The notes under the pieces: model-generated
The model's database searches: none
Seen by the model: only the letters and a program-made list of their open reading frames with translations
Told to the model about the DNA's origin: nothing
In this document: one piece after another, positions 13,634 through 46,047 of the stretch
Layout of the letters: every line of letters starts with the position of its first letter
Numbering within the stretch: the stretch's first letter is position 1
Assembly (NCBI RefSeq): GCF_023910635.1
Contig: NZ_JAAVVZ010000017.1
Coordinates: 1-53,503 of the forward strand
Direction: 5' to 3'
From: Sphingorhabdus sp.
GTDB taxonomy: Bacteria > Pseudomonadota > Alphaproteobacteria > Sphingomonadales > Sphingomonadaceae
Length of the DNA: 53,503 bases
Translations under genes and position numbers: made by a program

Positions 13634-13900
13634 TAGGGTCAGGACCACTTAAATCCACCTTCGCGGTTTGAGGCCATACTGTTCAGTGCAAGGCGGCAAG
13701 CGCAGGGCTTAGTGGTTCTAAGTCCAAGCTTGCCAACGCGGCAATGGACAGTATGGGTCAAATCCGAAGGACGTCAAAATGGCTTTGTTCTCAAAGCAAA
13801 ATGCCCTTGCAGGCAGAATGACTGCCTGCGGCGGACATTTTCCTTCGATATCTTTGCCATTTTGACGCCGCGAAGGTGGATTTAAGTGGTCCTGACCCTA
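13634..13900 (+). mobile_element. three-arm palindromic repeat, copy 1 (MITE-like)
   Basis: A 267-bp element counted from TA to TA. The ends form a perfect 33-bp terminal inverted repeat (starts TAGGGTCAGGACCACTTAAA). Inside are two further inverted arms. Arm 1 has CCATACTGTTCA paired with TGGACAGTATGG and, within it, GGCAAGC/GCTTGCC and CTTAG/CTAAG. Arm 2 has CGTCAAAATGGC paired with GCCATTTTGACG and a perfect GCAGGCAG/CTGCCTGC tip. It encodes no transposase. Its right-hand TA with the last C forms the msrA stop codon (13898-13900). It differs from copy 3 at about 7 positions. It is probably a miniature inverted-repeat transposable element, mobilised in trans. Confidence 0.85.
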
Positions 13901-14437
13901 AGCAGACTTAGCAATCCGTGCGGCAAATCCTTTTTTCAACTTTGCCAATTTTGGCGGAATGACTGCGAGGCAATATGGGTTGCGCTGTCCTTCGCCGTCC
14001 CAATATTCTTGGTGATAATCTTCGGCAGGATACCAAATGGCAGGGCCCTCAATTGTCGTCACAATGGGTGTGGGCCAATCGCCTGCGGCCTTTTGTATAC
14101 CCGCTTCGGCCTCTGCACGCTGTTCGTCGGACAATGGAAAAATGGCCGAACGATATTGGGTACCGATGTCATTGCCCTGCCGATTAAGCTGCGTCGGATC
14201 ATGTGTTGCAAAGAATATTTCGAGCAAATCGGCATAGCTTATGACATCGGCATCGAATGCGATGCGGATTGCCTCTGCATGGCCCGTATTTCCGCCACAC
14301 ACGTCTTTGTAAGTCGGATCGACCGTGTGGCCGCCAATATATCCGCTTACGACACCGCTAACGCCATTCAGTTGTCCAAAAACGGCTTCGGTGCACCAGA
14401 AACAACCTCCGGCAAAAATGGCTTCTTCTTGCGGCAT
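13898..14437 (-). CDS. msrA: peptide-methionine (S)-S-oxide reductase
   Basis: Repairs oxidised methionine (S-sulfoxide form) in proteins and free methionine, using thioredoxin; cytoplasmic. The catalytic GCFWC motif is at residues 11-15 with Cys12 as nucleophile. The family blocks GYIGGHTVDPTYKDVCGGNTGHAEA and EDYHQEYW are intact. The ATG lies 3 nt after the stop of the RND pump gene, with its ribosome site (AAGGA) inside the pump gene's end, so translation is probably coupled. The TAG stop is supplied by the end of the dispersed repeat, so the ancestral stop region was rewritten by that insertion. Confidence 0.96.
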   Translation of the reverse strand: MPQEEAIFAGGCFWCTEAVFGQLNGVSGVVSGYIGGHTVDPTYKDVCGGNTGHAEAIRIAFDADVISYADLLEIFFATHDPTQLNRQGNDIGTQYRSAIFPLSDEQRAEAEAGIQKAAGDWPTPIVTTIEGPAIWYPAEDYHQEYWDGEGQRNPYCLAVIPPKLAKLKKGFAARIAKSA

Positions 14438-14440
14438 AAT

Positions 14441-17400
14441 CTATCCTTGAACTTGGGCGGAGTTTGCAGCCTTTGCCGCGTCCCCGCGCACCACCAGAAG
14501 GTACATGGCTGGCGTGACAATACGTGATAGCAAAGTAGAAGAAATCAACCCCCCGATTAACACGATTGCCAACGGTGAATACAGGCTGCCACCAAACAAG
14601 GCGAGCGGCATCAGGCCACCTATCGCGGTCACTGACGTGAGCAGGACCGGCAAGAATCGCACTTCACCGGCCTTTTCAATCGCTTCGCGCAAGCCAAGGC
14701 CGCGCTGCCGCAACTGCGTGGTGAAGTCGACTAGCAATATGGAGTTTTTAATCTCGATCCCGACCAAAGCGATAAATCCGATGATCGCAAGAAAGGACAG
14801 GTTGTTACCGGTGATCAGCAATGCGATTAGGCCGCCAAACGTGCCCAAGGGAATGACGCCGGCGACGACCAAAGCTTCCTTAAACCTGCCAAATTCGGCC
14901 ACCAATATGGCGAATATGCTGAACAAGGCCACCACCACCACCGGGCCGAAGCCTGCAAAGGTATCATTGATTTTTTCCGCCTCACCCCCCACCGCGATGG
15001 CGTAGCCGGGCTTGAGCGGAATCTGGTCCATCTGCTTTTTCGCATCGACATTCACCTTGGACACGACGACACCGTCGGTGATCTGGGCCGTGACGCCAAC
15101 ATAACGCTGCAGATTATAACGATAAATGGCGGCAGGCGTTGATTCCAGTGTCGGGTTTGAAATCTCCGCCAATTGAACGGCCTGTCCGCTTCGGTTCGAA
15201 ACATAGATCGATTCCAACGCCGAAACCGGCTGCGTCTCTGCCAATGGCAAGCGAACAACAACGGGGTAGCTGTCCCCTTCGGTGTCGCGATAGGTGCCAG
15301 CTCGTTCGCCACTAAGCGCAAGCCGTATCGCCCTCCGCGCGGCACCCGCAGGCACATCAAGCAACGCCGCTTTGGCATCGTCAACGCGTATGTCCAAATC
15401 GACCTTATCAAACGCAACCGGGTTGTTAATGTCTCTCGTGCCGGGGGTTTCGCGCAAGACTTGCTCCATTTGCCCCGCGAGACGTTTTAGTTCTTCCTGA
15501 TCAGGACCATAGACGCGGAATTCGACAGGGGCGTTGATGGGGGCGCCGTTCTGAAACAACATCAGCTTGATCCGCGCACCTGATATCTGGTCCAATTTCT
15601 GGCGCAACCTGTCCACCATCGCCCGCGATTTTGCCCCCTGCCAATTATCCATAATGGCGAGAACTTCTCCATGGGTCGGATTCTCTCCGCGTTGAAACAC
15701 ATTGTAGAAAACCGGCGGATTATAGGCGCCGACATTTTCTGCGCGGACTTTAATGGCGGGTTCGGTTTTCAGAACGGCGGATACCTGGGCGACAATGCGG
15801 CCCGTTTCGGCGACACTCGCGCCTTGCTGCGCTTCCACCGTAACGCGGAAATAAGATGTATCGGCGTTTGGAAACAGGCTGAACCCAAGTATCGGCACCA
15901 GCGAAAATGCCGCGCATGTGCCAATTAATGCGCCCCAAACGGAACGGCGAGGCCGGTCGAGCGCCCAATGGAGCATCGGGTGGTAAAAACGGTCAATTTT
16001 ACGCATCAGCCATTGCAGAAGCGGGCTACCTGCCTCCGGCTCATCGCCTTTCAGGATTCGGCTCGCCAAAAACGGCACGATAGTGAGCGAAACAATCATC
16101 GATGCCGTAATCGTTGCCACGATGGTGCCGATGAAGCTCTGGATAAACTTGCCCGCCCCTTCAGGCAAAAAGAACAAGGGCAAAAAGGCAAAGACCAACA
16201 CGCCGGTCGACCCCAAAACCGCCATCGTAATTTCTTTGGTGCCGTCTATCGCCGCTTCGCTGCGGCTTTTCCCCATGCGCAAGTGTCGCGAGATATTCTC
16301 GACCACGACAATCGAATCATCGACCAATAATCCCAATGTCAGGATGAAACCCGCAACCACCAATTGGCTAAGGTTAAAGCCATAAGCCGATATCGCCAGC
16401 AGACCCGATGCAATCGACAGCGGGATCGATATCATCACGATGACCGACGCCCGCCAGCCCAAGGGCAACAGAGTGATCAGCACAAGAAATAAGGCGATTG
16501 CAAAGTCGCGGGCGAGCTCGTTCAAGCGTTTCCGAATATCCTTGCTTTGGTCAAACTGGATGACGGCCTGTATATCGGGCGGCAACAACGCCTGTTGTCT
16601 TGCAAGTTCTTCGACCAACCGATTGCGTAACTTCGTGGCATCGGTACCCTGTTTTTGATTGGCGGTAATGAAGACGGCGCGCTTGCCATTATGGCTTACT
16701 TTCACGCGCTGTTCCGCAGCGCTGATTTTCACGTCGGCGACATCTCCGACACGGATTATCGACCCGTCGTTCGACCGGATCGGAAGATTGCGAATTTTTT
16801 CGAGGTCACGAAATGCGCCGCCCGTCTCCACATTGAATCTGCGTGCACCGCTGATGACCGCGCCAGCGGGCACATCCGCGCCGCCAACGCGGATCGCATC
16901 GACCACAACGCTTGCTGGCAACCGCAGCTCGGCAAGCCTGCCGGTATTAATCGCAACGCTGATTTCCGGTTGGGGTAGGCCGTAAATTTCTGCCTGACGG
17001 ACCTCTTTATCCCGCCCCAAGGCCTCGCTGACATCGCGGGCATATTTTTCCATCCGGTACCAGCTTGCACTATCGCTCAGCAGCGCAATTTGGAGAATTG
17101 ACGCATTTGTCGTGCGGATTTTTTCGAATTGCAGGCCCTGAAGATCCGCAGGTAATTGGTTCCGGATCGCTGTGACTTCACGCACCGTATCGTTGAAATA
17201 TTGGTCCGGATTACCCGCCCAATCGAACTCCGCCCGAATAACCGCATTGCCATCGCTGCTGGAAGATACGACACTTTGGACATCCTCCAAACCCTGAACC
17301 AGCTCCTCAATCGGCTTGGTAATGGTTTGCTCAATCTCTGCCGCATCGGCCCCAGGCTGCAATGCCACAATTGACACGACAGGCATCGAAAAATGCGGGT

Positions 17401-17509
17401 CAACCGCGCGGGGAACCTGCTGAAATGCAGAAAAGCCCAACGCGCAGAGCAAAGTGAACAGCACAAGGGTCAGCTGCCATCGACGAATTGCGAACTCCGC
17501 GATATGCAT
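14441..17509 (-). CDS. RND-family efflux transporter permease
   Basis: Inner-membrane proton-driven pump of the resistance-nodulation-division family, 1022 residues. It shows the N-terminal membrane helix, two large periplasmic loops and the second set of helices. The TM4 proton-relay motif LGLLVDDSIVVVENI lies near residue 400. It pairs with the membrane-fusion lipoprotein gene 3 bp upstream and overlaps functionally with msrA downstream. No TolC-like outer-membrane channel is in the window, so it presumably shares one encoded elsewhere. The substrate cannot be told from sequence; AcrB/MexB-like relatives export hydrophobic compounds and biocides. Confidence 0.93.
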   Translation of the reverse strand: MHIAEFAIRRWQLTLVLFTLLCALGFSAFQQVPRAVDPHFSMPVVSIVALQPGADAAEIEQTITKPIEELVQGLEDVQSVVSSSSDGNAVIRAEFDWAGNPDQYFNDTVREVTAIRNQLPADLQGLQFEKIRTTNASILQIALLSDSASWYRMEKYARDVSEALGRDKEVRQAEIYGLPQPEISVAINTGRLAELRLPASVVVDAIRVGGADVPAGAVISGARRFNVETGGAFRDLEKIRNLPIRSNDGSIIRVGDVADVKISAAEQRVKVSHNGKRAVFITANQKQGTDATKLRNRLVEELARQQALLPPDIQAVIQFDQSKDIRKRLNELARDFAIALFLVLITLLPLGWRASVIVMISIPLSIASGLLAISAYGFNLSQLVVAGFILTLGLLVDDSIVVVENISRHLRMGKSRSEAAIDGTKEITMAVLGSTGVLVFAFLPLFFLPEGAGKFIQSFIGTIVATITASMIVSLTIVPFLASRILKGDEPEAGSPLLQWLMRKIDRFYHPMLHWALDRPRRSVWGALIGTCAAFSLVPILGFSLFPNADTSYFRVTVEAQQGASVAETGRIVAQVSAVLKTEPAIKVRAENVGAYNPPVFYNVFQRGENPTHGEVLAIMDNWQGAKSRAMVDRLRQKLDQISGARIKLMLFQNGAPINAPVEFRVYGPDQEELKRLAGQMEQVLRETPGTRDINNPVAFDKVDLDIRVDDAKAALLDVPAGAARRAIRLALSGERAGTYRDTEGDSYPVVVRLPLAETQPVSALESIYVSNRSGQAVQLAEISNPTLESTPAAIYRYNLQRYVGVTAQITDGVVVSKVNVDAKKQMDQIPLKPGYAIAVGGEAEKINDTFAGFGPVVVVALFSIFAILVAEFGRFKEALVVAGVIPLGTFGGLIALLITGNNLSFLAIIGFIALVGIEIKNSILLVDFTTQLRQRGLGLREAIEKAGEVRFLPVLLTSVTAIGGLMPLALFGGSLYSPLAIVLIGGLISSTLLSRIVTPAMYLLVVRGDAAKAANSAQVQG

Positions 17510-17512
17510 GGA

Positions 17513-18568
17513 CTATGGCAGTCCCTTGACGATACGCACGGCAGACCCGTTGCGCAGTTTTTCCAAACCGGACGTTACGATCTTGTCGCCTGGCTGTACC
17601 CCACCCGACACATTAACGAAATCATCAGCGATCCGTTGTATGATGACATTGCGCGTTTCAACGCGGTTCTTGACATCCACCACATAAACCAAGCCTTCGC
17701 CCGCGCGGACGCCAAACAAAGCGCTTGCCGGAATTTGTAATATTGTCCCATCGTCCGACGCTGGCAACCTTATGGTTGCTGTCCCTATTTGCCCCGACCG
17801 CAATGTTGGCCGATTGGGCAGGCGAAATTGGACGGAGAACGCCCCCGTGGCCGCGTTTGCGCGACCGTCAATCTCCGATATCGTCGCCGTCAGCGGTGAA
17901 TCACCTGCGGATTCAATCAATATATCTGCCGCCATGCCAACGCGCAGTTTCGAGGCGTCACGATCAACGATTGGAACGCGGAAGACAAAGCCGTCGTCGG
18001 CCTCCCCCAAAATAAGCGCTGGCGTTCCAGCGGTGATGACTTGCCCGGCCTGCACATTGCGCATCAGCACAACGCCGTTTGAAGGGGCGTATAGTTGCGC
18101 CGTGTTGCGCGCAAAACCTGCCTGCCGCACACGCGCGTCTGCGCCCTTTAACGTTGCTTCAGCGGCCTCAAACCGCGCCTTGGTTATCCAGCCATCGGCG
18201 TAAAGCGCGCCAACACGGTCAAACTCTGCCCGGGCGCGATCACGCTCGGCTGTCGCAACACTCATGTCCGCACCAACATTCGTCGTGTCGAGCGCAGCCA
18301 ACAATGCGCCGCGCTTTACAACGTCACCTTCTTCGAAACGCACAACAGCAACCTTGCCCGCGGTTGTAAAACCCAGAGGTGTTTCGCGGCGATAGCGCAC
18401 CGTGCCAACGGCGTTGATCTCCCGATCTGCGCTCTGATTTCCTAAAGTGAATATCTCGACGGGTAAGGCGGTCTTGGGCGCGCGCTTGCTTTCGCCCGCA
18501 CTGTCGCTGCAACCAGAAAGGGAAATCAGCAGCAATAGGCCCGTCAAAAATTTCGAAGATACTGGCAA
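17513..18568 (-). CDS. RND efflux periplasmic adaptor (membrane fusion protein)
   Basis: Adaptor linking the RND pump to an outer-membrane channel, 351 residues. A lipobox (SLSGC, Cys20) suggests a lipid anchor facing the periplasm. A lipoyl-like hairpin region brackets an alpha-helical section (about residues 95-150), followed by beta-barrel and membrane-proximal domains (LRSGQIGTATIRLP). The start is TTG, chosen because GGGAGG lies five bases upstream and the next codons lead directly into the signal peptide. It is first in the adaptor-pump-msrA operon; no regulator gene is adjacent. Confidence 0.93.
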   Translation of the reverse strand: MPVSSKFLTGLLLLISLSGCSDSAGESKRAPKTALPVEIFTLGNQSADREINAVGTVRYRRETPLGFTTAGKVAVVRFEEGDVVKRGALLAALDTTNVGADMSVATAERDRARAEFDRVGALYADGWITKARFEAAEATLKGADARVRQAGFARNTAQLYAPSNGVVLMRNVQAGQVITAGTPALILGEADDGFVFRVPIVDRDASKLRVGMAADILIESAGDSPLTATISEIDGRANAATGAFSVQFRLPNRPTLRSGQIGTATIRLPASDDGTILQIPASALFGVRAGEGLVYVVDVKNRVETRNVIIQRIADDFVNVSGGVQPGDKIVTSGLEKLRNGSAVRIVKGLP

Positions 18569-18651
18569 ACGGTCCTCCCCTGCGCGGCTTTAATACGCAT
18601 GATAGTTGAATATTCGTCAGGATGAAATAGCGTTTTGATATGCAACTTATT

Positions 18652-19632
18652 TTACATTTTGCCCGGCGCTAGCAATGGGGGCGGCAGAGGACGATTTTCA
18701 GAAACTGTCTGCTGTATCAAGGCAATTTCACGCTGCATCACCTTTTGTCTATTCTTCCATCTTAAATGCGTTCCGGCGGAAAATATCCCAAGGTCGGTTC
18801 TCCGGCCATATCGTTCCATAAAATGCAACGCAGCCTGGGTATCATAGCCTGCATTCGCCATCAGCCAGACCGAAAGCCTGTCCGCCTCGATTTCGGTCTC
18901 TAATATCTGCTTATTGCTGTTGCCAGTGGCGGCGAGCCTTTGGCGGTGTCCGAGCAGGTTATGCGACATTTCATGTGCGACGACGGCCGCAAGCTGCGCC
19001 TCATCGTCGGCGGTAAACGCCATCAACCCTTCAGTCACGCGGACTGACACCCCGTCCGCGCCTGCGTCCAGTTTGGATTTGGTATCCACCCAAAAACGGG
19101 ATGCGCAGATAGCAAGCGGGGCAAGTTTCACCCTCCTGACGCCATCTGCCGTCATGAACGTGACGTCGGCAGTGCCGATTGTGTCCAGCGCCTCCCCCAG
19201 CATTTTTTGAAGTTTTTCCAAGCGCGCGCTGGCGCGTTTTTCTTTCACCAAATTTGGGCTGGTAAAATCAACTTCATTTACAGCGATTATGGCATCACCC
19301 GGCTTGATCCCCATCGCTTCCGCCGCGCCGCCCGAAACGACTGCAGACACGGCAACCGGCAGGCGAAATCCGAACGCGGCCTGCGCCATAGCGGGGTCAG
19401 GATATTGCGCCTTATCGTGCAGCACCCAGCCGGGGTTGCGGCTCTTGCGCTCGCAAAATGGCGCATTTGCTAGGGCCAAGCGATGGCCCACCATCGCCAG
19501 TCGCAAATCCTGTTCGGCCAATGCTTGGTAGTTGGCGATGTCCGGCGCGGACACCGATACCACCTGCGCCTGCGCCTGCGCCTGCGCGGGCACCAGCGCC
19601 ACCAAAATCATGATGGCGGCCAGCAATTTCAT
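18652..19632 (-). CDS. secreted M48-type zinc metalloprotease with PDZ-like segment
   Basis: A 326-residue putative periplasmic protease. The signal peptide (about residues 1-22) includes an unusual QAQAQAQA run encoded by tandem GCCTGC-type hexamers. A PDZ-like segment (about 88-125, AMGIKPGDAIIAVNEVDF) precedes the catalytic HEMSH at 220-224, and EIEAD (about 247-251) supplies the third zinc ligand. This is the M48 arrangement. The start overlaps the tsaC stop as TAATG, so the two are translationally coupled. A role in envelope protein quality control is likely by analogy with BepA/LoiP, but the substrate is unknown. Confidence 0.85.
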   Translation of the reverse strand: MKLLAAIMILVALVPAQAQAQAQVVSVSAPDIANYQALAEQDLRLAMVGHRLALANAPFCERKSRNPGWVLHDKAQYPDPAMAQAAFGFRLPVAVSAVVSGGAAEAMGIKPGDAIIAVNEVDFTSPNLVKEKRASARLEKLQKMLGEALDTIGTADVTFMTADGVRRVKLAPLAICASRFWVDTKSKLDAGADGVSVRVTEGLMAFTADDEAQLAAVVAHEMSHNLLGHRQRLAATGNSNKQILETEIEADRLSVWLMANAGYDTQAALHFMERYGRRTDLGIFSAGTHLRWKNRQKVMQREIALIQQTVSENRPLPPPLLAPGKM

Positions 19633-20591
19633 TACCTGACGGCTGCTCTTGCGAGCCTATCGTTCATTGCGATGCCTATACCCTCATGCGGAATTGGCGC
19701 GACCGCGATAGTATTGGCCAAACTCGCATCCGCATTGTGCAGCGCCTCAAACAAATGCGCCGCAGCCTGCGCCAGATCGCCAGTTGAGGACAAGTTTTCG
19801 TCGCCCGTTATTGCGCCAAAACCAATGAGATAATCACCCTTTTCTGCGACCGTGACGTTCAAGCGGACAGGTTTTGACGGCGCATAATGGCTGGCCATTT
19901 GGCCAGGCGCCTCAATCGCGCTTATGGGCATGGACAAAGGCGGGAATCCGAGCATCTGTTCAATTTCCATTGAGCTGACCGGCCCCGGTCTTAACACCTG
20001 CCACCCATCATCGCGCACGGCAACGATCGTTGATTCCAACCCCGCCGAACATGGCCCCCCGTCTAGTATCATCGGTACGGCCCCTCCAAGGCCTTTTAAG
20101 ACATGATCCGCCCGCGTTGGGCTGATTGCCCCGCTCCGGTTTGCAGAGGGCGCAGCGAGGCTTAAATCGCTTTTTAGGAGCAATGCCTGCATCACGGGAT
20201 GGGCGGGGCACCGAATGGCGATTGTCGGCAGCCCTGCGGTTACCGCGCGGGCAACCGGAGCGCCGGGTTGCAACGGCAAAACCAGCGTCAACGGCCCGGG
20301 CCAGAAGGCGTCGGCCAGTGCCTGCGCAGTAGCGTTAAACACACCAAGCTTTTCTGCGGCTTTCCGATCACGAACATGCACAATAAGCGGATTAAAATCC
20401 GGCCGCCCCTTTGCCGCATAGATGCGCGCAACCGCCTCTGCATTTTGCGCGTCTGCCGCAAGGCCATAAACCGTCTCCGTGGGAATCGCTACAATCTGTC
20501 CGGCGCGAAGAAGCTGCGCCGCAGCGGTAATCGCAGCGTCGTCAGCGGGCACAACCCAGCCATTCCCCAAGGTATTTGAGCCAAACATCAT
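19632..20591 (-). CDS. tsaC: L-threonylcarbamoyladenylate synthase (Sua5/YrdC/YwlC)
   Basis: Makes threonylcarbamoyl-AMP from threonine, bicarbonate and ATP, the first step of t6A37 tRNA modification; cytoplasmic. The YrdC-type domain (about residues 18-205) has IPTETVYGLAADA, KGRPDFNPLIVHV and the PSANRSGAISPT signature. The C-terminal extension (about 240-319) with ASHYAPSKP matches the Sua5 domain, so this is the long form. The gene is divergent from the acyl-CoA dehydrogenase and is coupled to the downstream protease gene by a TAATG overlap. The start at M1 or M2 is equally possible. Confidence 0.95.
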   Translation of the reverse strand: MMFGSNTLGNGWVVPADDAAITAAAQLLRAGQIVAIPTETVYGLAADAQNAEAVARIYAAKGRPDFNPLIVHVRDRKAAEKLGVFNATAQALADAFWPGPLTLVLPLQPGAPVARAVTAGLPTIAIRCPAHPVMQALLLKSDLSLAAPSANRSGAISPTRADHVLKGLGGAVPMILDGGPCSAGLESTIVAVRDDGWQVLRPGPVSSMEIEQMLGFPPLSMPISAIEAPGQMASHYAPSKPVRLNVTVAEKGDYLIGFGAITGDENLSSTGDLAQAAAHLFEALHNADASLANTIAVAPIPHEGIGIAMNDRLARAAVR

Positions 20592-20642
20592 AAGCGGCTA
20601 TAGGCGGAGGCAGACCAGATTTAACAGGAATATTTATTCAAT

Positions 20643-23191: not shown

Positions 23192-23201
23192 GATCAGAAT
23201 C

Positions 23202-24524: not shown

Positions 24525-24537
24525 TTTACCTGCTCCC

Positions 24538-24720
24538 TTAATGACGCTTGCGATCCATGATCCAGATCACCACCGCAATAACGGTGCCGATTGCCATGCC
24601 GATGACGGTCCCGGCAGAGGCTTGGTCCATAGCGACGCCAATTATGGCCCCGATTAATAGCCCAAAGGCGATGAAGATGCCACCGGCAAAGCGGGGCTGA
24701 CTGTTTTGTGTTTCGGACAT
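24538..24720 (-). CDS. small two-helix membrane protein
   Basis: A 60-residue protein with two adjacent hydrophobic segments, FAGGIFIAFGLLIGAIIGVAM (about 11-31) and TVIGMAIGTVIAVVIWIM (about 38-55). It ends in DRKRH, consistent with an inner-membrane hairpin. The start MSETQNS at 24720 is chosen over the upstream in-frame ATG because AAAGGGG precedes it at suitable distance and it removes a non-conserved extension. It is 13 bp upstream of the PQQ-type dehydrogenase and probably cotranscribed; its role is unknown. Confidence 0.7.
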   Translation of the reverse strand: MSETQNSQPRFAGGIFIAFGLLIGAIIGVAMDQASAGTVIGMAIGTVIAVVIWIMDRKRH

Positions 24721-24765
24721 AAGGCCCCTTTGCCACCAACAGCGATGTTCAAGCAAGCGCCTTGT

Positions 24766-34148: not shown

Positions 34149-34233
34149 GGCTTTAACGCTTAGACGCTGACCGCTATATGGGTAAGGCGGAGTGGCACCC
34201 AAAAACGTCACCCCCCCGACCATCGCCCCACAA

Positions 34234-34370
34234 CCGTCACCCTGAACTTGGTTCAGGGTCCATTTATCGTCTCTACCCTTCGGCCTGTGTGGCACGATGG
34301 ATGCTGAACCGAGTTCAGCATGACGTTTGGGGGAAACGCGTCGTCTTTTCCCCGTCGCCCCAGCGTAGGC
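34234..34370. repeat. intergenic repeat unit A, copy 1
   Basis: It contains two perfect hairpins, ACCCTGAAC/GTTCAGGGT and ATGCTGAAC/GTTCAGCAT, joined by about 45 bp, then a CCCCGTCGCCCCAGCG tail. Copy 2 starts 181 bp further along and is about 90% identical by eye. The CACCCTGAACTTG...CAGGGT part is a common sphingomonad dispersed repeat. It lies between convergent genes, so it may act as a bidirectional transcription barrier. Confidence 0.8.
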
Positions 34371-34414
34371 TGGAGTGACGGTACTTATGGGGGATTAGAC
34401 ATTTTGCCTTCTTA

Positions 34415-34546
34415 CCGTCACCCTGAACTTGTTTCAGGGTCCATTTATCAGCCGAAAACTTCGGCCTGCGTGGCACGATGGATGCTGAACCGAGTTCAGC
34501 ATGACATTTGGGAGAAACGCGCTCTCTTATCCCCGTCGCCCCAGCG
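34415..34546. repeat. intergenic repeat unit A, copy 2
   Basis: Second tandem copy with the same two hairpins (ACCCTGAAC with loop TTG and one T-for-G change; ATGCTGAAC/GTTCAGCAT) and the same CCCCGTCGCCCCAGCG tail. It ends 2 bp from the stop codon of the glutamate dehydrogenase gene (34549). Together the two units fill the 400-bp gene-free stretch between the 41-residue gene and that stop; nothing else coding is seen there. Confidence 0.8.
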
Positions 34547-37500: not shown

Positions 37501-39198
37501 ACGGAAGTCATGAATATAATGACCATCGCCCAATGCGGTTGGCGATTCCTCCAAAACATCAAAACCGAAATTCTCCAGCGCTGGCACGACATCGCTCAAC
37601 GGCAATGCGCCGCCATTGCTGTAAATTTTTAGGCGTAGCTTGCCATCTTCTACGAACAGCCGGGTGATCTTGCTGTGGTCGCGTTCCATGGCGAGCAAGC
37701 CAATCATGTCCCGCGCAGCTTCGTCGGTCGAATAGGTGCTGCGATAATTGGCCGGGAACCCGGCCCCATATCGGACAAGCATGGCGGCGGCGCGCTTTTC
37801 ATCGGTCAGATGTGCCAATGCCGCCTCAACCGCTGGCTCCCACCCACGCACCATCAGCTCAAGCTTTGCATCCAGGCTAGCTTCGTCCACTGTCTGTCCA
37901 CGGTCCGGCAGATCTAGCGTATACCGCAGCAAGGCTACGCCGCCATCTTCCAAACCGATTGTCCAGCCTAATAAAGACCCGCCCGTGGCATCCATCAGCA
38001 TCGTCTGGATCTGCTTACGGATGCCCGTGGATACGTCGTCGCGTGGCAACCATACAAAGATATACAAATGACGTCCAAGTGGCGACCGCAGCGCAATCAG
38101 CTTGGGGCGCGGTCGGTCCGTTAGCGACATGGCGGTCAGCGTTACGCGTTCCAGATCATCCAGCTTGAGCGCGACCAAAAGGTCGTGCGGCAGCGCCGTG
38201 AGCGCATGGGCCATCGCCTTGCCAGCATGGCCCGAAGGGTCGAAGCCATAACGCGCCATCAACGAAGCCAGATGCGTTCTGAGCACAGGTATGGTTTCCG
38301 GAGCAGTTGCAAGCGCCGCGCTGGTCCAAAGCCCTGCTGCGACGGCTAAGCCTGTTACCCGATCTCCCGTTTGCACCGGCATAACGATTAGGTCCAATTG
38401 AACACTGCGGTGGACATTGGAAACACGGTTGGATTTCAGCACCAAGGGCGCGATGCCCCCGGCTTCAAACCAGTTGATAGCAAGGCTGACGCTATCTTCC
38501 GAAAGCACGGGGGCGTCGCTCACGCGCGACAATCCAAGGCGGTTGGAACGCGTGCCATCGCTGCTGATCCGTTCATGCGCCAATATGGTCATATTATTAT
38601 CATGGAACCAACGGATTAGCGCGGTACCTTCGCTATCAGGCAGGCTGTCGGCGTCGGCGGACAAGGCCGCGAGCATGTCGCGCCAATCCGTCACCGCACC
38701 GCGAACGTCGGCGAGAACAGCCGCCAAATGCGCTTCAAGCTGACGGCGTTCCTTGGCGTCGACGCGCGCTGTTTCGAGGTAAATGAAGGATTCGCGCGGC
38801 TGCCCATCAATGCGTTTCCGGCTGATTGATGAAAGTGTATTGGCTTCATCGCGGGTAACGCTCAGCACCGGATGAATGATGCGATTCACAGCTATGCCAT
38901 AAGCGGCGACTGCTGCAGACACCGAATCCACCAAAAAGGGCATATCGTCATTATTCAGCGATATGCGCATCATCAAACGGCCATGCGCATCGGTAAAGCT
39001 ATCCAGTGCAATGGCCGCGCTGCCCGCCTTGCGATGCAGGCCGGTTTCGATGGTGAAACGCGCGGCATCCTCCGCCGCTTTGGCGTCAAAACCCTCATTC
39101 TCGCCCGGCAAAGCCGTCTCGGTAAAGGCGCAGACCATATCCTTCAAAAGGGTCTTGTCGATTTTTCCGGTATTTTTAGCAATTTTGGCGGCCGCCAT
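34549..39198 (-). CDS. gdhB: NAD-specific glutamate dehydrogenase, large type
   Basis: Large (about 1549 residues) NAD-dependent enzyme that deaminates glutamate to 2-oxoglutarate. It belongs to the about 170-180 kDa class known from alphaproteobacteria and Pseudomonas. The N-terminal regulatory half is poorly conserved. The catalytic region at about residues 755-790 reads RGGLRWSDRRDDFRTE and then QRVKNAVIVPTGAKGGFYPK, and the Rossmann-like GEGANLGVTQ lies near 1080. The start at 39198 is chosen for GGGGAG eight bases upstream; longer frames to 39306 begin with TTG or lack a site. Allosteric or stress control is typical for the class, but no operator is visible. It completes proline-to-oxoglutarate catabolism with PutA. 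Confidence 0.93.
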   Translation of the reverse strand: MAAAKIAKNTGKIDKTLLKDMVCAFTETALPGENEGFDAKAAEDAARFTIETGLHRKAGSAAIALDSFTDAHGRLMMRISLNNDDMPFLVDSVSAAVAAYGIAVNRIIHPVLSVTRDEANTLSSISRKRIDGQPRESFIYLETARVDAKERRQLEAHLAAVLADVRGAVTDWRDMLAALSADADSLPDSEGTALIRWFHDNNMTILAHERISSDGTRSNRLGLSRVSDAPVLSEDSVSLAINWFEAGGIAPLVLKSNRVSNVHRSVQLDLIVMPVQTGDRVTGLAVAAGLWTSAALATAPETIPVLRTHLASLMARYGFDPSGHAGKAMAHALTALPHDLLVALKLDDLERVTLTAMSLTDRPRPKLIALRSPLGRHLYIFVWLPRDDVSTGIRKQIQTMLMDATGGSLLGWTIGLEDGGVALLRYTLDLPDRGQTVDEASLDAKLELMVRGWEPAVEAALAHLTDEKRAAAMLVRYGAGFPANYRSTYSTDEAARDMIGLLAMERDHSKITRLFVEDGKLRLKIYSNGGALPLSDVVPALENFGFDVLEESPTALGDGHYIHDFRLALRGGDISTVVEKPQVLEGALSQVLDGSFENDVFNQLVTIGGLAPQSVIWLRAYYRYLRQTGVAYGMPTVVSALAKNANVTRSIISLFDALHNPATNGSRDKEAAKYQKLINADLAAVSAIDEDRILRRFLAVVLATLRTNAFSAAAAEALAFKLDCAKVPGLPAPKPWREVFVYSPRVEGIHLRAGPVARGGLRWSDRRDDFRTEVLGLMKAQRVKNAVIVPTGAKGGFYPKRLPDMRVDRDAWFAEGTEAYKIFIRTLLSITDNIVNDRVVHPDNVVIHDGDDPYFVVAADKGTATFSDTANAIALERNFWLGDAFASGGSVGYDHKAMGITAKGGWLSVQRHFAEMGIDVQKEPVTVAGVGDMSGDVFGNGMLLSKTLKVVAAFDHRHIFLDPDPDPATSWKERQRLFNLPRSSWLDYDAKLISKGGGVFARTDKIIKTTSEIRSLLGIDAKEIEPSVLMTAILKAPVQLMWFGGIGTYIKDRSESHLDVGDPGNDFIRVNGAELRAQVIGEGANLGVTQAGRIGYALRGGRINTDFIDNSAGVDCSDNEVNIKIALNAQMRAGKLKEPARNVLLAEMTDAVAHLVLEDNRLQTLALSIAETGGAGDLPAYVRLIEIFEGAGRLDRVVEGLAPNEELFRRASEGHGLTRPELAILLSTAKLAAQDGVEEAPLTQDKSMDGELLAAFPDMMVKSHKSAILGHRLRKEIIATKLANRMINRLGMLHPFELAEEEGCSLGDVAAAFAIAESIYDLPSLWNAIDTTAMPESTRLMLFHQAALEVRAQMADIIRNAHEGRDVAAATGVYAPVVQKLTAALDGLLPHDVRLQTERFGARLTENGAPRKIADRLVQLAQLDGAIGLAALSSTQKGDVTALTRAFTALGDALGLSWAQGTAMQVDPHDPWERLLVAGLARDFQTMRLDFLRRRAAKKSLEDTQDWLVANAVRVRAFKAMVDRAQMTGAPTPAMLAQVAGQARVLLGR

Positions 39199-39316
39199 GA
39201 AATGATCTCCCCAGCCCGCAAGCATCTGGTTATGTGCCATGTTCAACGATAAATTTCGTTGTAATTTTATTACAATACTTATGACGCGCTTCTCAAGCTT
39301 AAACAAGTCGCGTCTG

Positions 39317-39584
39317 TAGGGTCAGGACCTATTAAATCCACCTTCGCGGCGTCAAAATGGCAAAGATATCGAAGTAAAATGTCCGCCGCAGGCAGTCATT
39401 CTGCCTGCAAGGGCATTTTGCTTTGAGATCGAAGCCATTTTGGCGTCCTTCGGATTTGACCCATACTGTCCATTGCCGCGTTGGCAAAGCTAGACTTAGA
39501 ACCACTAAGCCTGCGCTTTGCCGCCTTTCACTGAACAGTATGGCCTCAAACCGCGAAGGTGAATTTAATAGGTCCTGACCCTTA
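39317..39584 (-). mobile_element. three-arm palindromic repeat, copy 2 (MITE-like, inverted)
   Basis: Same element as at 13634, inverted, 268 bp. The terminal repeats read TAGGGTCAGGACCTATTAAA, where copies 1 and 3 have CCACTTAAA. Both ends carry the same two-base change, so the outer stem is kept. In arm 1 the stem is GGCAAAGC/GCTTTGCC, one base pair longer than in copy 1, again changed on both sides. The left end has a TA flank; the right end reads GACCCTTA, with one extra T before TA. It lies upstream of the symporter gene (start 39649) and of the glutamate dehydrogenase gene (start 39198) and may carry or displace promoter elements. Confidence 0.85.
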
Positions 39585-39648
39585 CTTGTTGCGACGGCCA
39601 TTGCTCCTGTGTAGCGTCTTTCGGAACAACGAATGTTCGGAGGGTTGC

Positions 39649-40992
39649 GTGGATAAACGGCTGACATTGTGGATATTGGCAGGAATGATCCTGGGCGTGG
39701 CGGTTGGTTTCGCGGTCCACGTCAGTTTTGCGCCGGATAGCACGCAGTTTGAATATTTAACCAAAACATTCAAACTCCTCTCTGATATATTTCTTAACCT
39801 AATCAAATTGTTGGTTGCCCCCCTGATCCTATCCACGATAGTCGTGGGTATCGCGCATATGGGCGACAGCTCGGCGCTCGGTCGCATCGGTTTTCGCGCC
39901 ATTACATGGTTTATTATCGCCAGCTTTATCTCGATTGGCCTTGGCCTATTGATGGTAAACCTGTTTCAGCCAGGAATCGGTGCGCCAGTGGACAGTATTG
40001 GAAATGCTGCGGCAACCATTGGCGAAGTCAAAAAACTCGACTTTTGGGAATTCATTCTTTCGATTTTCCCCAAAAACGCGTTCGAGGCGATGGCGACAAA
40101 CAATATCTTGCAGATTTTGGTGTTTGCATTGTTCGCAGGCATCGCGCTTTCGGCCTTAGGTGAAAAGGGCGCACCTTTGGTGCGGGGTGCAGAGTCACTT
40201 GCGGAAATGATGCTGCAGATTACGCATTATGTCATGCGCTATGCCCCGGTAGCGGTGTTTGGTGCATTGGCAGCCGTGGTCTCAAAAAGCGGCCTTGCGA
40301 TCCTTGCAACCTATTTAGAACTGGTGACGGAATTCTATCTGTCGCTGGCGTTATTGTGGGTGATTCTGCTGTCGCTGGGCGGCATTTTCCTGGGCCGGCG
40401 TATATGGACACTCATCCGCTACATCCGCGAACCTATGTTGATCGCATTTTCGACAGCATCCAGCGAAGCGGCCCTGCCGAAGCTGTTTGAACAGCTCGAC
40501 CGTTTTGGTGTCCCGCGCCGGATTTCGGGCTTCATGCTGCCATTGGGCTACAGCTTCAACCTTGATGGTTCGATGATGTATATGAGCTTCGCGACCATCT
40601 TCATCGCGCAAGCTTATGGCATTGACCTATCCATCGGCACGCAGATCCTTATCCTGCTCACGCTCATGATTTCGTCCAAGGGCGTCGCCGCCGTGCCGCG
40701 CGCGTCGTTGGTGGTGATTACCGGCACGCTGGCGATGTTCGACCTTCCGGTGGAAGGCGTCGCGCTCATCCTTGCGATTGACCAATTCCTCGATATGGGC
40801 CGCACCGCGACCAATGTCGTCGGCAACGCCGTTGCAACGTCCGTCATCACCAAATGGGAGGGCATGTTGGAGGTTGAGGAACCCGATTATGTTGAACCGC
40901 CGCATGCACCCGCGCACACCATAGCGGACGGGAAAGCGGGGCTAGACCTCGCAGAAGATATGGTCACTGACGCGCGAAAGACGAAGCTTTAA
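39649..40992 (+). CDS. dicarboxylate/amino acid:cation symporter (DAACS family)
   Basis: Inner-membrane Na+/H+-coupled transporter of glutamate, aspartate or C4-dicarboxylates, about 447 residues. Family signatures include the reentrant loop AFSTASSEAALPKLFEQLDRFG (about residue 265) and GYSFNLDGSMMYMSFATIFIAQ (about 304), with SSKGVAAVPRASLVVI after it. The start is the GTG at 39649, preceded by GGAGG at 5-6 nt. The longer ATG-led frame begins in the adjacent repeat and is discarded. The stop overlaps the convergent methyltransferase stop in a TTAA (40989-40992). Its place next to the glutamate dehydrogenase gene supports glutamate uptake, but specificity is inference. Confidence 0.92.
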   Translation: MDKRLTLWILAGMILGVAVGFAVHVSFAPDSTQFEYLTKTFKLLSDIFLNLIKLLVAPLILSTIVVGIAHMGDSSALGRIGFRAITWFIIASFISIGLGLLMVNLFQPGIGAPVDSIGNAAATIGEVKKLDFWEFILSIFPKNAFEAMATNNILQILVFALFAGIALSALGEKGAPLVRGAESLAEMMLQITHYVMRYAPVAVFGALAAVVSKSGLAILATYLELVTEFYLSLALLWVILLSLGGIFLGRRIWTLIRYIREPMLIAFSTASSEAALPKLFEQLDRFGVPRRISGFMLPLGYSFNLDGSMMYMSFATIFIAQAYGIDLSIGTQILILLTLMISSKGVAAVPRASLVVITGTLAMFDLPVEGVALILAIDQFLDMGRTATNVVGNAVATSVITKWEGMLEVEEPDYVEPPHAPAHTIADGKAGLDLAEDMVTDARKTKL

Positions 40993-41726
40993 GCGGGGTG
41001 TTTGTGTCCAAGCAAGGTGCCCTTGGCACCTTGGCTGTCGAGCATGAATTCCATGTTGCGATGTTCTTTGCGCCAGCGCCGCGCAACCATGCGCTCACCG
41101 GGACGCGCGGCGTCATCCAACAGCACCCTGCCGCCGGGACGAATAAGCGGGAACAGGCTTGCGGCCGCGCCGCGCACATGCGGATGGATTGCCCAAGGCG
41201 GGCCATCGACGATAAGCAAATCAATTTCTGTCGGCACATCGGACAATTGATACCAGTGCCCCGGCCAGCCAGCTGGCGATGCGCCTAACGGGGCGTGCCA
41301 AATTTCCGCATCCATCTTGTTGTCGCTTATCCAGTCTTGAGTCGTTTGCGCGAACGCCGCATGTTGGTCAAAACTGACAATCTTTCCGCCGCCAAAAAGC
41401 TGCAGAGCGCGCGCCGCAACAAAGGTGGACGCGCCGCAGCCAAGTTCGACAACCTGCGCCGGTCGCATGTCTTCGATTGCGGAAACGATATGCCACAAAA
41501 AATTTGTGTCGGCTTTCCAGCTTCCCAAATTGGGCAGCGCATCGAAAGGCAGGTCGAGATAGGCGAGCAATGCCGCCTTATCTTTCTTGCGCCCGCCATC
41601 GAGGCTACGCAACAACCATGGCCATTGAATCGCGCCATAGGCCATGACCATGCAACGATCCCCCAATGACAGGCTAAGGTCCAAATCATTGAGGGGCATG
41701 TACGCCGTCGTTTCGCGTGTAGTCAT
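40989..41726 (-). CDS. class I SAM-dependent methyltransferase-like protein
   Basis: A 245-residue protein with a Rossmann-like SAM-binding motif, QVVELGCGASTFVAARAL (about residues 90-107). Later acidic strands (IDLLIVDGPPW, about 165; GGRVLLDDAARPGE, about 195) fit the Methyltransf_24 group. Target molecule unknown. The ATG at 41726 and an in-frame GTG two codons upstream are both possible starts, with a GGGGTG site close to the ATG. It is divergent from the MFS gene and converges on the symporter with shared stop bases. Confidence 0.78.
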   Translation of the reverse strand: MTTRETTAYMPLNDLDLSLSLGDRCMVMAYGAIQWPWLLRSLDGGRKKDKAALLAYLDLPFDALPNLGSWKADTNFLWHIVSAIEDMRPAQVVELGCGASTFVAARALQLFGGGKIVSFDQHAAFAQTTQDWISDNKMDAEIWHAPLGASPAGWPGHWYQLSDVPTEIDLLIVDGPPWAIHPHVRGAAASLFPLIRPGGRVLLDDAARPGERMVARRWRKEHRNMEFMLDSQGAKGTLLGHKHPA

Positions 41727-41847
41727 TTTCACCCCAAAGCCGTGAAGCGCGCATCAGTCAATGAAAGAGTTGTCGGCCCGACTGATTTTACGCAGTCATG
41801 GCACAGCCCGCCGTTGACAAGGCGCGCGCAACGAACGTTTCAAGGCT

Positions 41848-41876
41848 TTGACAATATCAAAATTTATTCCATAACA
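41848..41876 (+). promoter_or_regulatory. sigma70-type promoter for the MFS gene
   Basis: TTGACA (41848-41853) and a weak -10 ATAACA (41871-41876) are spaced 17 bp. The start codon follows 22 bp later with GAGGAG between. The -35 is perfect; the -10 is weaker, so this is a likely but unproven promoter. Confidence 0.5.
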
Positions 41877-41898
41877 CAGGAAGGAAGAGGAGATATTC

Positions 41899-43200
41899 AT
41901 GGAAGACAGCCGGACCGCGCCTGCGGCAAAACCGACGATTACAAATCCGAAATTGCTGCTGTGGATATTGATGGTTGTTTATGTGCTTAATTTCCTCGAC
42001 CGGCAGATTGTCAATATTTTGGCCGAACCGATCAGCCGGGATCTCGACCTTTCCGATACCCAAATTGGTTTGTTAACTGGCCTTGCCTTTGCGCTTTTCT
42101 ATACATTGTTGGGCATCCCCATCGCCCGTTATGCGGACAATAGCAGCACCAATCGCGTTGGTCTGATCTCCATATCCTTGGCGGTCTGGTCCGCGATGAC
42201 GGCCTTATGCGGGTTGGCGCAGAATTTCGCCCAACTCGCGCTCGCCCGCGTGGGCGTTGGCGTAGGTGAGGCAGGGTGCACCCCTGCCGCCCACTCGCTC
42301 ATTACCGACAGCGTCCCACCGGAAAAAAGATCATCAGCCATCGCGTTTTACGGCCTTGGCATTCCGATTGGCAGTTTATTGGGCCTCGTCATTGGCGGCG
42401 CATTGAACGATGCCTATGGCTGGCGCGTGGCATTCATGGCGGTCGCCATTCCAGGTTTGATATTGGCCGCGTTGCTGCCCTTCATATTGCGCGAACCACG
42501 CAAGGCCGAGGCGGCTGCCCGCGCATTATCGGGCGAAAAGGCGCGCGAGGTTCTTTCGACCAAAGACGCGCTCAAAGAAGTGTTCAGCTCGCGCGCCTTT
42601 GTGATGTTGGCAATCGCGGCATCATTCACGGCGTTTCTTTCCTACGGCAAAAGCGTTTGGGCGGTGATCTTGTTCATTCGCTCGCATGGCCTTAGCCCAG
42701 GGGAAACCGGCCTTTTGCTTGGCCTTGGCTTGGGCGTGGCGGGCATGATCGGCACCTGGCTGGGCGGAATGATGGCCGACAAATTTGGCAAGATCGATAA
42801 ACGTCATTTGCTGACCACGCCCGCCATCGGCATGGTCATTGCAACACCCATATTGTTCTTGGGCTATTTCGCAACCGACTGGCGCGTGGCGATACTTTTG
42901 TTATTTGTGCCAACGGCATTGAACGCGGCGTATTACGGCCCGACCTATGCCACTGTGCAAGGATTGGTAAAGCCGGAGGCCCGCGCTGTCGCCGCCGCCC
43001 TCATGCTGTTCGCGCAAAACCTGATCGGCCTTGGACTTGGACCGTTATTGTTCGGCATGATGTCGGACGCGTTCAAGCCGCTGGCGGGCGATGAAAGCGT
43101 CCGTTGGGTGCTATATGGCGCAGCATGGCTTGGCCTCATCCCCGCCTTTTTCTTCTGGCGGGCAAGCTTGCGGTTAAATGCTGAGCTTAAAAGCGGTTAA
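41899..43200 (+). CDS. MFS transporter, Spinster-like
   Basis: A 433-residue major facilitator protein with twelve predicted membrane helices. The N-terminal half contains [32 protein letters not shown] in the loop 2-3 region and [19 protein letters not shown] in TM4. These match the Spinster-like group common in sphingomonads. The substrate is unknown. ATG is set by a strong GAGGAG six bases upstream. The stop overlaps the convergent purA stop in a TTAA (43197-43200). Confidence 0.9.
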
Positions 43201-44486
43201 TCGGCAAAAGGATCACGCACCAAGATCGTATCTTCGCGCTGCGGCGAGGTGGATACCAAGGCAACGGGTGTTTCGATCAACTCCTGCACACGCGTGATAT
43301 ATTTGATCGCTTGTGCCGGAAGGTCGGCCCAACTGCGCGCGCCTGCGGTGGTTTCCTGCCAACCGGGCATTTCTTCGTAAATGGGCTCGACGGCGGCTTG
43401 CTCTGCCGCATGCGCTGGCAAATAGTCATAGACCTTACCGTGCAGGCGATAGCCGGTGCAGATCTTGATCGTATCAAACCCGTCGAGCACATCCAGCTTA
43501 GTCAGCGCAATGCCGGTCACACCAGATACGGCGCAGCTTTGACGCACAATAACGGCATCAAACCAACCACAGCGGCGCTTGCGGCCCGTGACGGTGCCAA
43601 ATTCATGGCCGCGCTCCCCCAGCCTTTGGCCGGTTTCATCCTCAAGCTCGGTCGGGAATGGTCCTGACCCGACCCGCGTGGTGTAGGCCTTAACGATACC
43701 CAGCACAAAGCCCGCCGCACTTGGCCCAAGACCGGAGCCGGACGCCGCTGTGCCTGAGACAGTGTTGGACGAGGTTACGAACGGATAGGTGCCATGGTCA
43801 ACGTCAAGCAAGACGCCTTGCGCGCCTTCGAACAATATCCGTGCGCCGGCCTTGCGCACCTTATTCAATCGCCTCCACACCGGCTCGGCATATTCCAGAA
43901 CAAAGGGTGCGATTTCTTTCAGATCGGCGATCAAGCGCGCGCGATCCACCGGCGGTTCGCCAAATCCGGCGCGTAAGGCATCATGATGCGCGCAAAGCCG
44001 GTCAAGCTGGGTATCCAAAGCATCGAGATGCGCCAGATCACACACGCGGATCGCGCGGCGGCCCACCTTGTCTTCATAAGCAGGGCCAATGCCGCGGCCT
44101 GTGGTCCCGATCTTGCCCGAACCCGCTGCGGTTTCCCGCAAACCATCCAAGTCGCGGTGGATTGGCAAGATCAATGCGCAATTGTCCGCCAACGCAAAAT
44201 TCTCGGTCGTGATCGAAACGCCCTGCCCGCGCAGCTTCGTCATTTCATCGCGCAACGCCCAAGGGTCAAGAACCACGCCATTGCCGATGATCGACAGCGT
44301 GCCAGTGACGATCCCCGACGGCAGCAACGATAATTTATAGACATTGTCACCAACGACCAAAGTGTGGCCGGCATTATGCCCGCCTTGAAAGCGGACAACA
44401 GCATCGGCGCGTTCCGCCAGCCAGTCTACAATCTTACCTTTACCCTCGTCGCCCCATTGCGCGCCAATTACGGTTACATTCGCCAT
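43197..44486 (-). CDS. purA: adenylosuccinate synthase
   Basis: Converts IMP and aspartate, with GTP, to adenylosuccinate in AMP synthesis. The P-loop [13 protein letters not shown] lies at residues 11-23 and the catalytic His is in [12 protein letters not shown] (about 35-46). [21 protein letters not shown] (about 125-147) and the C-terminal substrate loop are intact. Length 429 is normal. A ribosome site AGGGA precedes the ATG. It lies downstream of hisZ on the same strand, separated by 138 bp containing a hairpin. Confidence 0.97.
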
Positions 44487-44531
44487 CAGATATTCCCTGT
44501 CAAAGCCAGATAGCTCTGGGGCCTTTTTCTG

Positions 44532-44551
44532 CGCAGGAGATTTTTCCTGCG
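44532..44551 (-). other. hairpin between hisZ and purA
   Basis: On the minus strand CGCAGGA pairs with TCCTGCG over a six-base loop, followed by CAGAAAAAGG rather than a T-run. It could be an RNA-processing or weak termination site in the hisZ-purA gap. A second smaller hairpin (CCAGA/TCTGG, 44506-44519) lies nearer purA. Confidence 0.4.
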
Positions 44552-44624
44552 AAGGGATTCGCCATGGGCTCCGTTATGATTATGCGAGGCTGGCGTCCAC
44601 CCTAAAGCTGCGTGGGAGACGATT

Positions 44625-45737
44625 TCAGACGGGAATGGCTTGACCGTTTATCCAAATATGGGTGCAGCGCAGAACAGCGGCGCTGTCACCCTCATCCAAT
44701 GCCGATACCGTCACCCAACCTTCATGGCGCATTTTTGCGCCGGTCACGGCGTCGGTGCCAAGTGGCAGGAAAAGACGCCGGATGAAGCCTTCGTCAGCCA
44801 GATCAATCAACGGGTCGGGATAGAGCGAGAAGCCCGTTGCCGGTTCCGATGGTCCATCGGCACGATCAATATAATAGGTGCCCCCGCGACCAAGTGCAGC
44901 GCTATACCCTTTGGCGAAGATCGTGAAGCCGAACCAGCTTTGATATTCAAAGCCATGCCGTTCGGTCGGATCAAGCGTCACATTGGCGCGGCCCGCAATA
45001 TTGCTAGCAATGGCTTCCAAGGCACGGATTCGCGACGCGAGCGCCCCGCCAGCATCAATCGCCCGCAGCTTCTGAACCGCGTCTGCAAATGGGCCAGTCG
45101 CCGCAAGCAGCGGCAAATAGGCATCCGCCCCAAGCGCACTTAGTCCACCTGCATCCTTCATATCTAGCTCGGAGCGAACGGCATCAATCTTGTCCTTCGC
45201 CAAAGGCAGCGCCTTTTCCGCCAGCCGTTCCACAAGATCAGGCAAGGTGAAATCAATGGTGATGTCTTTGACGCCCGCCGCCTCAAGCGCATCAATGGCA
45301 ACGCCAACAATTTCGCAAGCGGCCGCGACGCTGTCATTGCCGACCAATTCTGCGCCCAATTGCGTCAGTTCCCGTTCGGGTCGCAATTGCTTGGCGCGCA
45401 AACGCAGCACCTGACCATGATAGGCCAAGCGCAGCGGTCGCGGCGCGTCCTTCATCCGGGTCGTGGCGATGCGCCCGACCTGCACGGTGATATCATCGCG
45501 CAGCGCCAGCGTGTGGCCCGACACAGGGTCGGTAAAGCGCAAATGCTGATTACGCGCGGCATTGCCGCTATGTTTGGCGAGCACCGATTCAAATTCCGCC
45601 ATGGCCGGTGCCACGCGCGCATAGCCGTAGCTTGCCAGCACGTCGATCATCGCCCGCGACACCCGCACCGCAACCTCCGCTTGAGGCGGAAGGCGGTCGC
45701 GATACCCTTCGGGCAGCAAATCAGGTGGATTATTCAT
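44625..45737 (-). CDS. hisZ: ATP phosphoribosyltransferase regulatory subunit
   Basis: A 370-residue paralogue of histidyl-tRNA synthetase that activates short-form HisG in the first step of histidine synthesis. It has the class II synthetase-like fold. The motif-2-like segment is LALRDDITVQVGRI, and a later block reads FGFTIFAKGYSAALGRGGTYY. It lacks the anticodon-binding domain. hisG is not in the window. The start at 45737 (ATG with AAAGAG nearby) is preferred to the GTG two codons upstream. It lies just 43 bp downstream of the third copy of the dispersed repeat on this strand. Confidence 0.9.
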   Translation of the reverse strand: MNNPPDLLPEGYRDRLPPQAEVAVRVSRAMIDVLASYGYARVAPAMAEFESVLAKHSGNAARNQHLRFTDPVSGHTLALRDDITVQVGRIATTRMKDAPRPLRLAYHGQVLRLRAKQLRPERELTQLGAELVGNDSVAAACEIVGVAIDALEAAGVKDITIDFTLPDLVERLAEKALPLAKDKIDAVRSELDMKDAGGLSALGADAYLPLLAATGPFADAVQKLRAIDAGGALASRIRALEAIASNIAGRANVTLDPTERHGFEYQSWFGFTIFAKGYSAALGRGGTYYIDRADGPSEPATGFSLYPDPLIDLADEGFIRRLFLPLGTDAVTGAKMRHEGWVTVSALDEGDSAAVLRCTHIWINGQAIPV

Positions 45738-45780
45738 GCGCACTCTTTACCGCAAAAGTCGTGGCGGGGAAGCCCCAGCT

Positions 45781-46047
45781 TAGGGTCAGGACTACTTAAA
45801 TCCACCTTTGCGGTTTGAGGCCATACTGTTCAGTGCAAGGCGGCAAGCGCAGGGCTTAGTGGTTCTAAGTCCAAGCTTGCCAACGCGGCAATGGACAGTA
45901 TGGGTCAAATCCGAAGGACGCCAAAATGGCTTCGATCTCAAAGAAAAATGCCCTTGCAGGCAGAATGACTGCCTGCGGCGGCCATTTTCCTTCGATATCT
46001 TTGCCATTTTGACGCCGCGAAGGTGGATTTAAGTGGTCCTGACCCTA
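45781..46047 (+). mobile_element. three-arm palindromic repeat, copy 3 (MITE-like)
   Basis: A 267-bp copy in the same orientation as the one at 13634, differing at about 7 positions. TA flanks both ends. In the outer stem the left arm carries T for C at two places (GGACTACTT, CCTTTGCGG) opposite unchanged G in the right arm, which would still pair as G-U in RNA. The two inner arms, including the GCAGGCAG/CTGCCTGC tip, are intact. The last C with the right TA forms the serA stop codon (46045-46047). It lies between serA's end and hisZ's start, both on the minus strand. Confidence 0.85.

Follow-up and report, generated by a model that had tools for sequence, protein, structure and literature searches.

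What moves a short repeat that is paired over nearly its whole length, and what keeps it paired? The question is raised by a 53,503-nucleotide stretch of Sphingorhabdus sp. DNA (the window; contig C8 of a 3.05-Mb genome), in which a preliminary description made from the letters alone had singled out three copies of a miniature inverted-repeat transposable element (MITE) with a stem and two palindromic arms.

Copies in the Window and in the Genome

All three copies are present at full length, copy 1 at 13634..13900 (+), copy 2 at 39317..39584 (−) and copy 3 at 45781..46047 (+), and they are 92–97% alike in pairwise comparison. The paired terminal repeats described for them were likewise borne out, being 94–100% complementary over 32–34 bp inside each copy. 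In copy 1, the left terminal inverted repeat (13634..13666, +) is of the type termed A here (TAGGGTCAGGACC...) and the right one lies at 13868..13900 (+). Between them follow arm 1 (13667..13762, +), with a TTTGA...TCAAA closing helix and nested stems, a junction segment (13763..13771, +) that forms a 3-pair mini-hairpin TCC...GGA (helix 5), and arm 2 (13772..13867, +), which carries a conserved mismatched internal loop and the tip GCAGGCAG/CTGCCTGC. In copy 2, TAAGGGTC replaces TAGGGTC at one end, which is why its aligned match ends at 39582. At ~267 bp the element is too short for a transposase gene; copies 1 and 3 lack an internal ORF of 100 aa, and a mechanically called ORF (39332–39667, −) crosses copy 2.

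The three window copies are real, but the family is not limited to them: of 163 candidate places in the genome 40 were scored, and at least 38 near full-length copies matched over at least 264 of 266 bp. Allowing at most one mismatch, the 13-base end TAGGGTCAGGACC is found 121 + 128 times in the genome (reversed-pattern control, 1 + 0), and the genome therefore holds about 125 end pairs of all sizes. The MITE is thus both multicopy and dispersed. No named description of it was found in the openly readable literature, where the exact string GGGTCAGGACC occurred once, in a paper on an animal startle screen.

The window also holds other repeats. A 133-bp direct repeat (34233–34365 and 34414–34546) is 89% identical between its units, 181 bp apart. 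Another palindromic repeat of ~41 bp (CCCCAGCG..GCTGGGG) is found in both orientations at 47647–47687, 47694–47735 and 53261–53304, and a 30-bp inverted repeat of C-rich hairpins occupies 4528–4557 and 4607–4636, 49 bp apart.

Target Site, Ends and Candidate Mobilisers

Relatives without the element read CCGCTTAAAACTT where the filled site reads CCAGCTTA–element–TAAAACTT. Compared with the empty site, a TA target-site duplication is seen at three loci (L184, L186 and L192); the junction could be read at 9 of the 17 loci, six of which have a simple empty site. Judged from this TA duplication and from ends that match those of full IS5-family elements, the repeat is a MITE.

The IS630-type transposase ORF of the window (PF13358; 9435..10070, +) has no MITE ends on its borders. 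The preliminary description had held that the MITE ends are unlike those of this IS630, and this was confirmed: no TAGGGTCAGGACC pair bounds any of three IS630 copies of that kind (L080–L082), and IS630 was set aside as the mobiliser. A second IS630-type element (PF13358), with five matches in the genome, splits a MITE copy at the tip of arm 1 (L062, C12:204040–205479).

A search for full transposases bounded by the same ends, suggested at the outset, succeeded in part. Full IS5-family elements with same-type ends occur in relatives and on a viral contig; none found in the own assembly matches exactly, the nearest being the ends of C31 (GGCTCAGGATGCATTAAATT, 3 of 13 positions mismatched). The one on the viral contig (L128) is 838 bp long, is bounded by CTAGGGTCAGGACCTATTAATT and encodes its transposase across two frames (PF13340; PF01609/PF13586). 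Transposases like that of L128 lie between CTAGGSTCAGGAC... ends at four loci in the order (L156, L168, L169, L177) and adjoin one such end at others, and in Dinoroseobacter a matching end adjoins an IS5 transposase (L150). Further IS5-family loci with matching ends are L153 and L162, and the TCATTAAATCCACC of L156 and L169 is held in common with the MITE's own TTAAATCCACC. We take the matching elements to be of the IS427-like group. Insertion sequences of the IS5 family (DUF4096 + DDE_Tnp_1, two-frame, CTAG/TA target) thus have the end types GGSTCAGGAC... and GGYCGTRAACTCATAAA in common with the MITE, with TA flanks and sequence context alike, whereas the MITE lacks a transposase and has a conserved folded interior; among the loci examined, a profile search at E 1e-6 found no such interior in the matching insertion sequences.

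Under a strict pattern, 25 of 67 full elements from named genomes have type A at both ends and 17 have type B at both; two and two have one end only, and 21 have neither type, many of these being drifted type A. Type B ends are also found on IS5-family elements in Sphingobium (L148) and others, and they match 62 plasmid records (20-bp-class hits). A third end type adjoins an IS5-like transposase in L164, where one end was found. One and the same interior is thereby shown to carry ends that differ between elements but match each other within an element, and at least two of the end types are those of the IS5 family. Two other end types were at first taken to mark further transposases. Type D (GGGGCCAGACTCC) was confined to one orthologous locus among the ends read and looks like joint drift in place, whereas type E (GGCTCACAGTGC), with ends read from two genomes at a single locus, remains a candidate. 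An unusual end pair, GGGGCCAGACTCCGCCC, is common to three genomes at one locus, and 23 of 30 fetched loci show the empty site, so that at least part of the joint end change may have taken place in situ.

Recognition by IS5-family transposases is suggested by the sequence match of the ends, and carriers of the transposase and of the MITE hardly overlap within the genus. With one 122-aa query and with some assemblies being drafts, a transposase match was obtained in 1 of 16 other MITE carriers (a weak one) and in 6 of 8 MITE-free genomes (p 0.001). Such near-disjoint carriage is the reverse of what current mobilisation predicts, and the MITEs of the genus may now outlive their transposase. The own genome has eight copies of a more distant IS5, with CTAGGTCACATACTCATAAA ends in the two that were inspected. 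At one of its junctions (L172, C1:45672 region), an IS5 with CTAGGTCACATACTCATAAA ends abuts a MITE end, with CTAG in common, and L093 has a similar junction; MITE ends thus seem to be places where IS5-family elements nest. Two inverted type A ends also stand 1,048 bp apart around an oxidoreductase-like ORF (L060, C2:74–1121). This 1.05-kb stretch was rejected as an autonomous element: on our reading of the sequence the ORF is host-like and of the quinone-oxidoreductase type, and no transposase is present. It has the look of either a host gene flanked by two solitary ends or a passenger that was captured.

Host Range

BLAST detects the MITE in 24 of the 36 other genomes of its genus and in none of 24 from other genera. 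The latter figure is a limit of BLAST. When a version of the element from Sphingobium served as query, matches came from 37 of 296 genomes of the order, spread over 12 of 79 genera. All but one of these 37 genomes belong to the same family, and the exception has a 41-base match only. Full-length relatives of 66–70% identity occur on plasmids of Sphingopyxis, Sphingobium and Novosphingobium, and the matches listed in the genome scan also include Stakelama, Tsuneonella, Sphingosinithalassobacter and Sphingomonas. Plasmid searches returned five and six records with matches, and a search of a phage collection returned none.

A covariance model of arm 2, run on 385 genomes of the class, recovered two elements outside the family, one in each of two other alphaproteobacterial families; with nine candidates scored per genome, the 382 misses of this search say little about absence. 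One of the two (L422) is 266 bp long with type A ends and the other (L423) 268 bp with TAGGGTCTGAACCCAATT ends, and each folds into the stem with its pair of arms and has the same small hairpin in the middle.

Insertion at Stop Codons

In the window, copies 1 and 3 each provide an adjacent ORF with its stop codon. The terminus of copy 1 makes the TAG at 13898..13900 (−) that ends ORF 13898–14437 (−), and that of copy 3 makes the TAG at 46045..46047 (−) that ends ORF 46045–47628 (−). The site of copy 3 is empty in relatives, where the same gene ends in TAA; insertion duplicated the TA and turned this TAA into the element's TAG. More widely, an ORF of at least 160 codons runs into 46 of 142 ends, 36 stopping at the element's TAG and 8 and 2 lying in the other frames.

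When the flanks are joined as if the element were absent, and genes are taken from crude longest-ORF predictions, the ratio of stop to intergenic sites is 9:10 in the own genome against 25:138 at other YTAR sites (p 0.002), and 25:22 against 23:168 in other genomes (p 8e-9). This test covered 90 of 156 elements, the others lacking a readable TA at an end, having short flanks or being duplicates, and six of the stop-codon insertions in other genomes coincide with the stops of two genes. Copies are thus shown to be enriched at stop codons.

A Fold Conserved Across Diverged Elements

The architecture proposed for the MITE, a stem with two arms, was recovered by folding. Copy 1 forms a closing stem and two branched arms; as RNA it has a folding energy of −165.4 kcal/mol, where shuffled sequences average −82.8 (z −16), and folded as DNA it gives z −18.5, with 0 of 200 shuffles reaching the observed value in either case. 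The covariation check called for on aligned copies was made on 29 elements less than 90% identical in the core, in a nearly gap-free alignment. RNAalifold finds 93 pairs, 71 of which have double changes that preserve pairing, and the inner palindromes are accordingly conserved, as had been supposed. Paired cells amount to 95.6%, against 75.7% in shuffled and at most 45.3% in slid alignments, and double-changed cells number 508 against 146.9 after shuffling (0 of 500 shuffles).

Within arm 2, three facing positions of the internal loop form a Watson-Crick pair in 0 of 56 elements (with one T-G wobble), and this unpaired loop is flanked by near-invariant stems. The interior of the MITE is conserved as a fold. 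An Rfam search found no match at or above gathering score, the best scores being at chance level (19.9–22.8 bits), and terminator-like matches within arm 2 were weak.

DNA, One RNA or Both Strands

Selection on one RNA strand is expected to tolerate G-U but not A-C. RNase P RNA, treated alike as a control and taken from 30 genomes of the order, shows 114 G-U and 11 A-C. In the 29 elements, the arm pairs that the consensus folds of the two strands share show 19 G-U and 26 A-C, and the terminal repeats 16 and 16; among 56 elements less than 92% identical, the ratios are 40:54 in the arms and 25:33 in the ends. Plus-strand arm pairs give 25 G-U and 29 A-C, plus two columns where G-U is the norm. 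Since A-C mispairs are as frequent as G-U, unlike in RNase P RNA, the pairing is preserved at the DNA level or for both strands.

These counts bear on the proposal that the MITE carries cargo in the form of its interior, a structured RNA specific to one strand, for which the strong covariation and the invariant unpaired positions would speak. G-U is not favoured over A-C in the helices, with two contrary sub-results: pairs from the minus-strand consensus alone show 66 G-U and 21 A-C, an excess that we ascribe to the folding program choosing pairs that allow G-U, and single changes that arose in situ, counted at two old loci, number 10 to G-U and 3 to mismatch, too few to weigh. Both would suit selection at the RNA level. 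Against them stand the pairs common to both strands, the mean folding energy, which is equal on the two strands (−162.3 and −162.0), and the lack of an Rfam match, so that a strand-specific RNA is quite improbable.

The terminal repeats, too, change together. In 32 diverged elements, the two ends are 9.9 and 8.9 of 32 positions off the consensus and 2.8 off each other, a mean that includes at least three rows mis-registered by one base (18–19 mismatches), whereas ends swapped between elements differ at 12.7 positions; 7 of 156 elements had no readable ends. Equal numbers of G-U and A-C are exactly what template switching can yield, and this process probably helps keep the stems paired. Its occurrence at hairpins during replication is documented in the excerpted text of PMC8794818.

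Template switching alone might then keep the stems, the fold having no function and the copies at stop codons surviving as other insertions get purged. The balanced mispairs, the matched drift of the two ends and the documented mechanism all agree with this reading, and it has a real though lesser chance of being correct. It does not explain the arm-2 loop, which is unpaired in all 56 elements although switching should extend through it from the near-invariant flanking stems. Old orthologous insertions have moreover changed more slowly than their flanks, one at 13/266 against 88/793 positions (p 0.002) and a second at 16/266 against 130/797 (p 8e-6), with a third comparison (12/266 against 93/794) that is dependent on the first. 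At one old insertion (L123/L124), the right inverted repeat reads GTGAGCCT where the downstream gene starts, and the left repeat matches; this element may now provide a start codon.

Deleted Forms and the Role of the Arms

Loss of the arms is frequent. Forms that keep both ends are known without arm 2 (181 bp), without arm 1 (162 bp), without both (84 bp) and with a shortened arm 2 (207 bp). Their breakpoints lie at short direct repeats, so deleted forms can arise repeatedly. These forms bear on the idea that the arms are needed for transposition, for example by joining the two ends or by resisting host nucleases. Element length would fit such a role, being 267–271 bp across the 29 aligned elements (267 or 268 in 26 of them), a range that is partly a selection effect of requiring near full-length matches, and the two distant relatives have nearly the same size. 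Against it, armless and one-armed forms with intact ends occur in several species, and one deletion is common to three dispersed copies of the own genome (L063a, L069 and L071), though recurrent deletion could also account for this. The deleted forms do not show what part the arms have in movement; their existence means that the arms may not be needed for it, and an indispensable role is unlikely.

Comparison with Known Repeats

ERIC/IRU and Correia/NEMIS insert at a TA target. Like the present MITE they are short, folded, intergenic repeats with terminal repeats. The present element differs in hosts and apparently in sequence, in combining one interior with several end types and in having putative mobilisers that are assigned to the IS5 family by their ends. 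Both ERIC/IRU and Correia/NEMIS are listed as bacterial MITEs in PMC3733652. CGTC-tagged REPs are palindromic repeats of Alphaproteobacteria including sphingomonads; they measure 20–40 bp, bear an unpaired CGTC end tag and have no known transposase (PMC3733652). The MITE, by contrast, is ~267 bp long with 33-bp paired ends.

A Probable Non-autonomous IS5-Family MITE with a Folded Interior

Taken together, the evidence makes it likely that the repeat is a non-autonomous IS5-family MITE with a folded interior, moved in trans, its ends exchanged, its stems matched by template switching and selection, and its insertions tolerated at stop codons. IS5-family transposases would recognise the outer part of the 33-bp ends and insert the element at a YTAR site with duplication of the TA, and the interior could be handed from one such transposase to another through exchange of the ends. 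The stems would be kept in that a change in one strand is matched in the other, partly through template switching during replication and partly through selection that acts on the structure, either in DNA or in the possible transcripts of both strands. An element that lands in a stop codon would end the gene with its own TAG; it would therefore be tolerated there and would form the 3′ untranslated end of a single gene or of a convergent pair. As to what the fold does, our leading guess is that it gives genes a folded 3′ end at their stop codons, one that is tolerated and perhaps useful; that it acts as a two-sided 3′-end structure is likewise a guess, in keeping with where the copies lie and how slowly they evolve.

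A bolder proposal, which we regard as tentative and rather doubtful, is a deep alphaproteobacterial lineage defined by a two-strand DNA three-way-junction fold and not by its transposase. About 27 bp would be exchanged at both ends, the ends would co-evolve in place, and copies at stop codons, including convergent ones, would be kept as two-sided 3′-end modules.

The usual view of bacterial MITEs is that they are the decaying remains of a single insertion sequence. In the present element, the interior has lasted longer than the ends, one fold being found with several IS5-family end types. The family thereby offers a natural test case, readable from genomes, for selection on structure versus mutational repair of palindromes, with G-U versus A-C counts, a conserved unpaired loop and matched ends evolving in place as its readouts. 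Furthermore, a terminus that is itself a stop codon gives a clear route for adding folded 3′ ends to genes.
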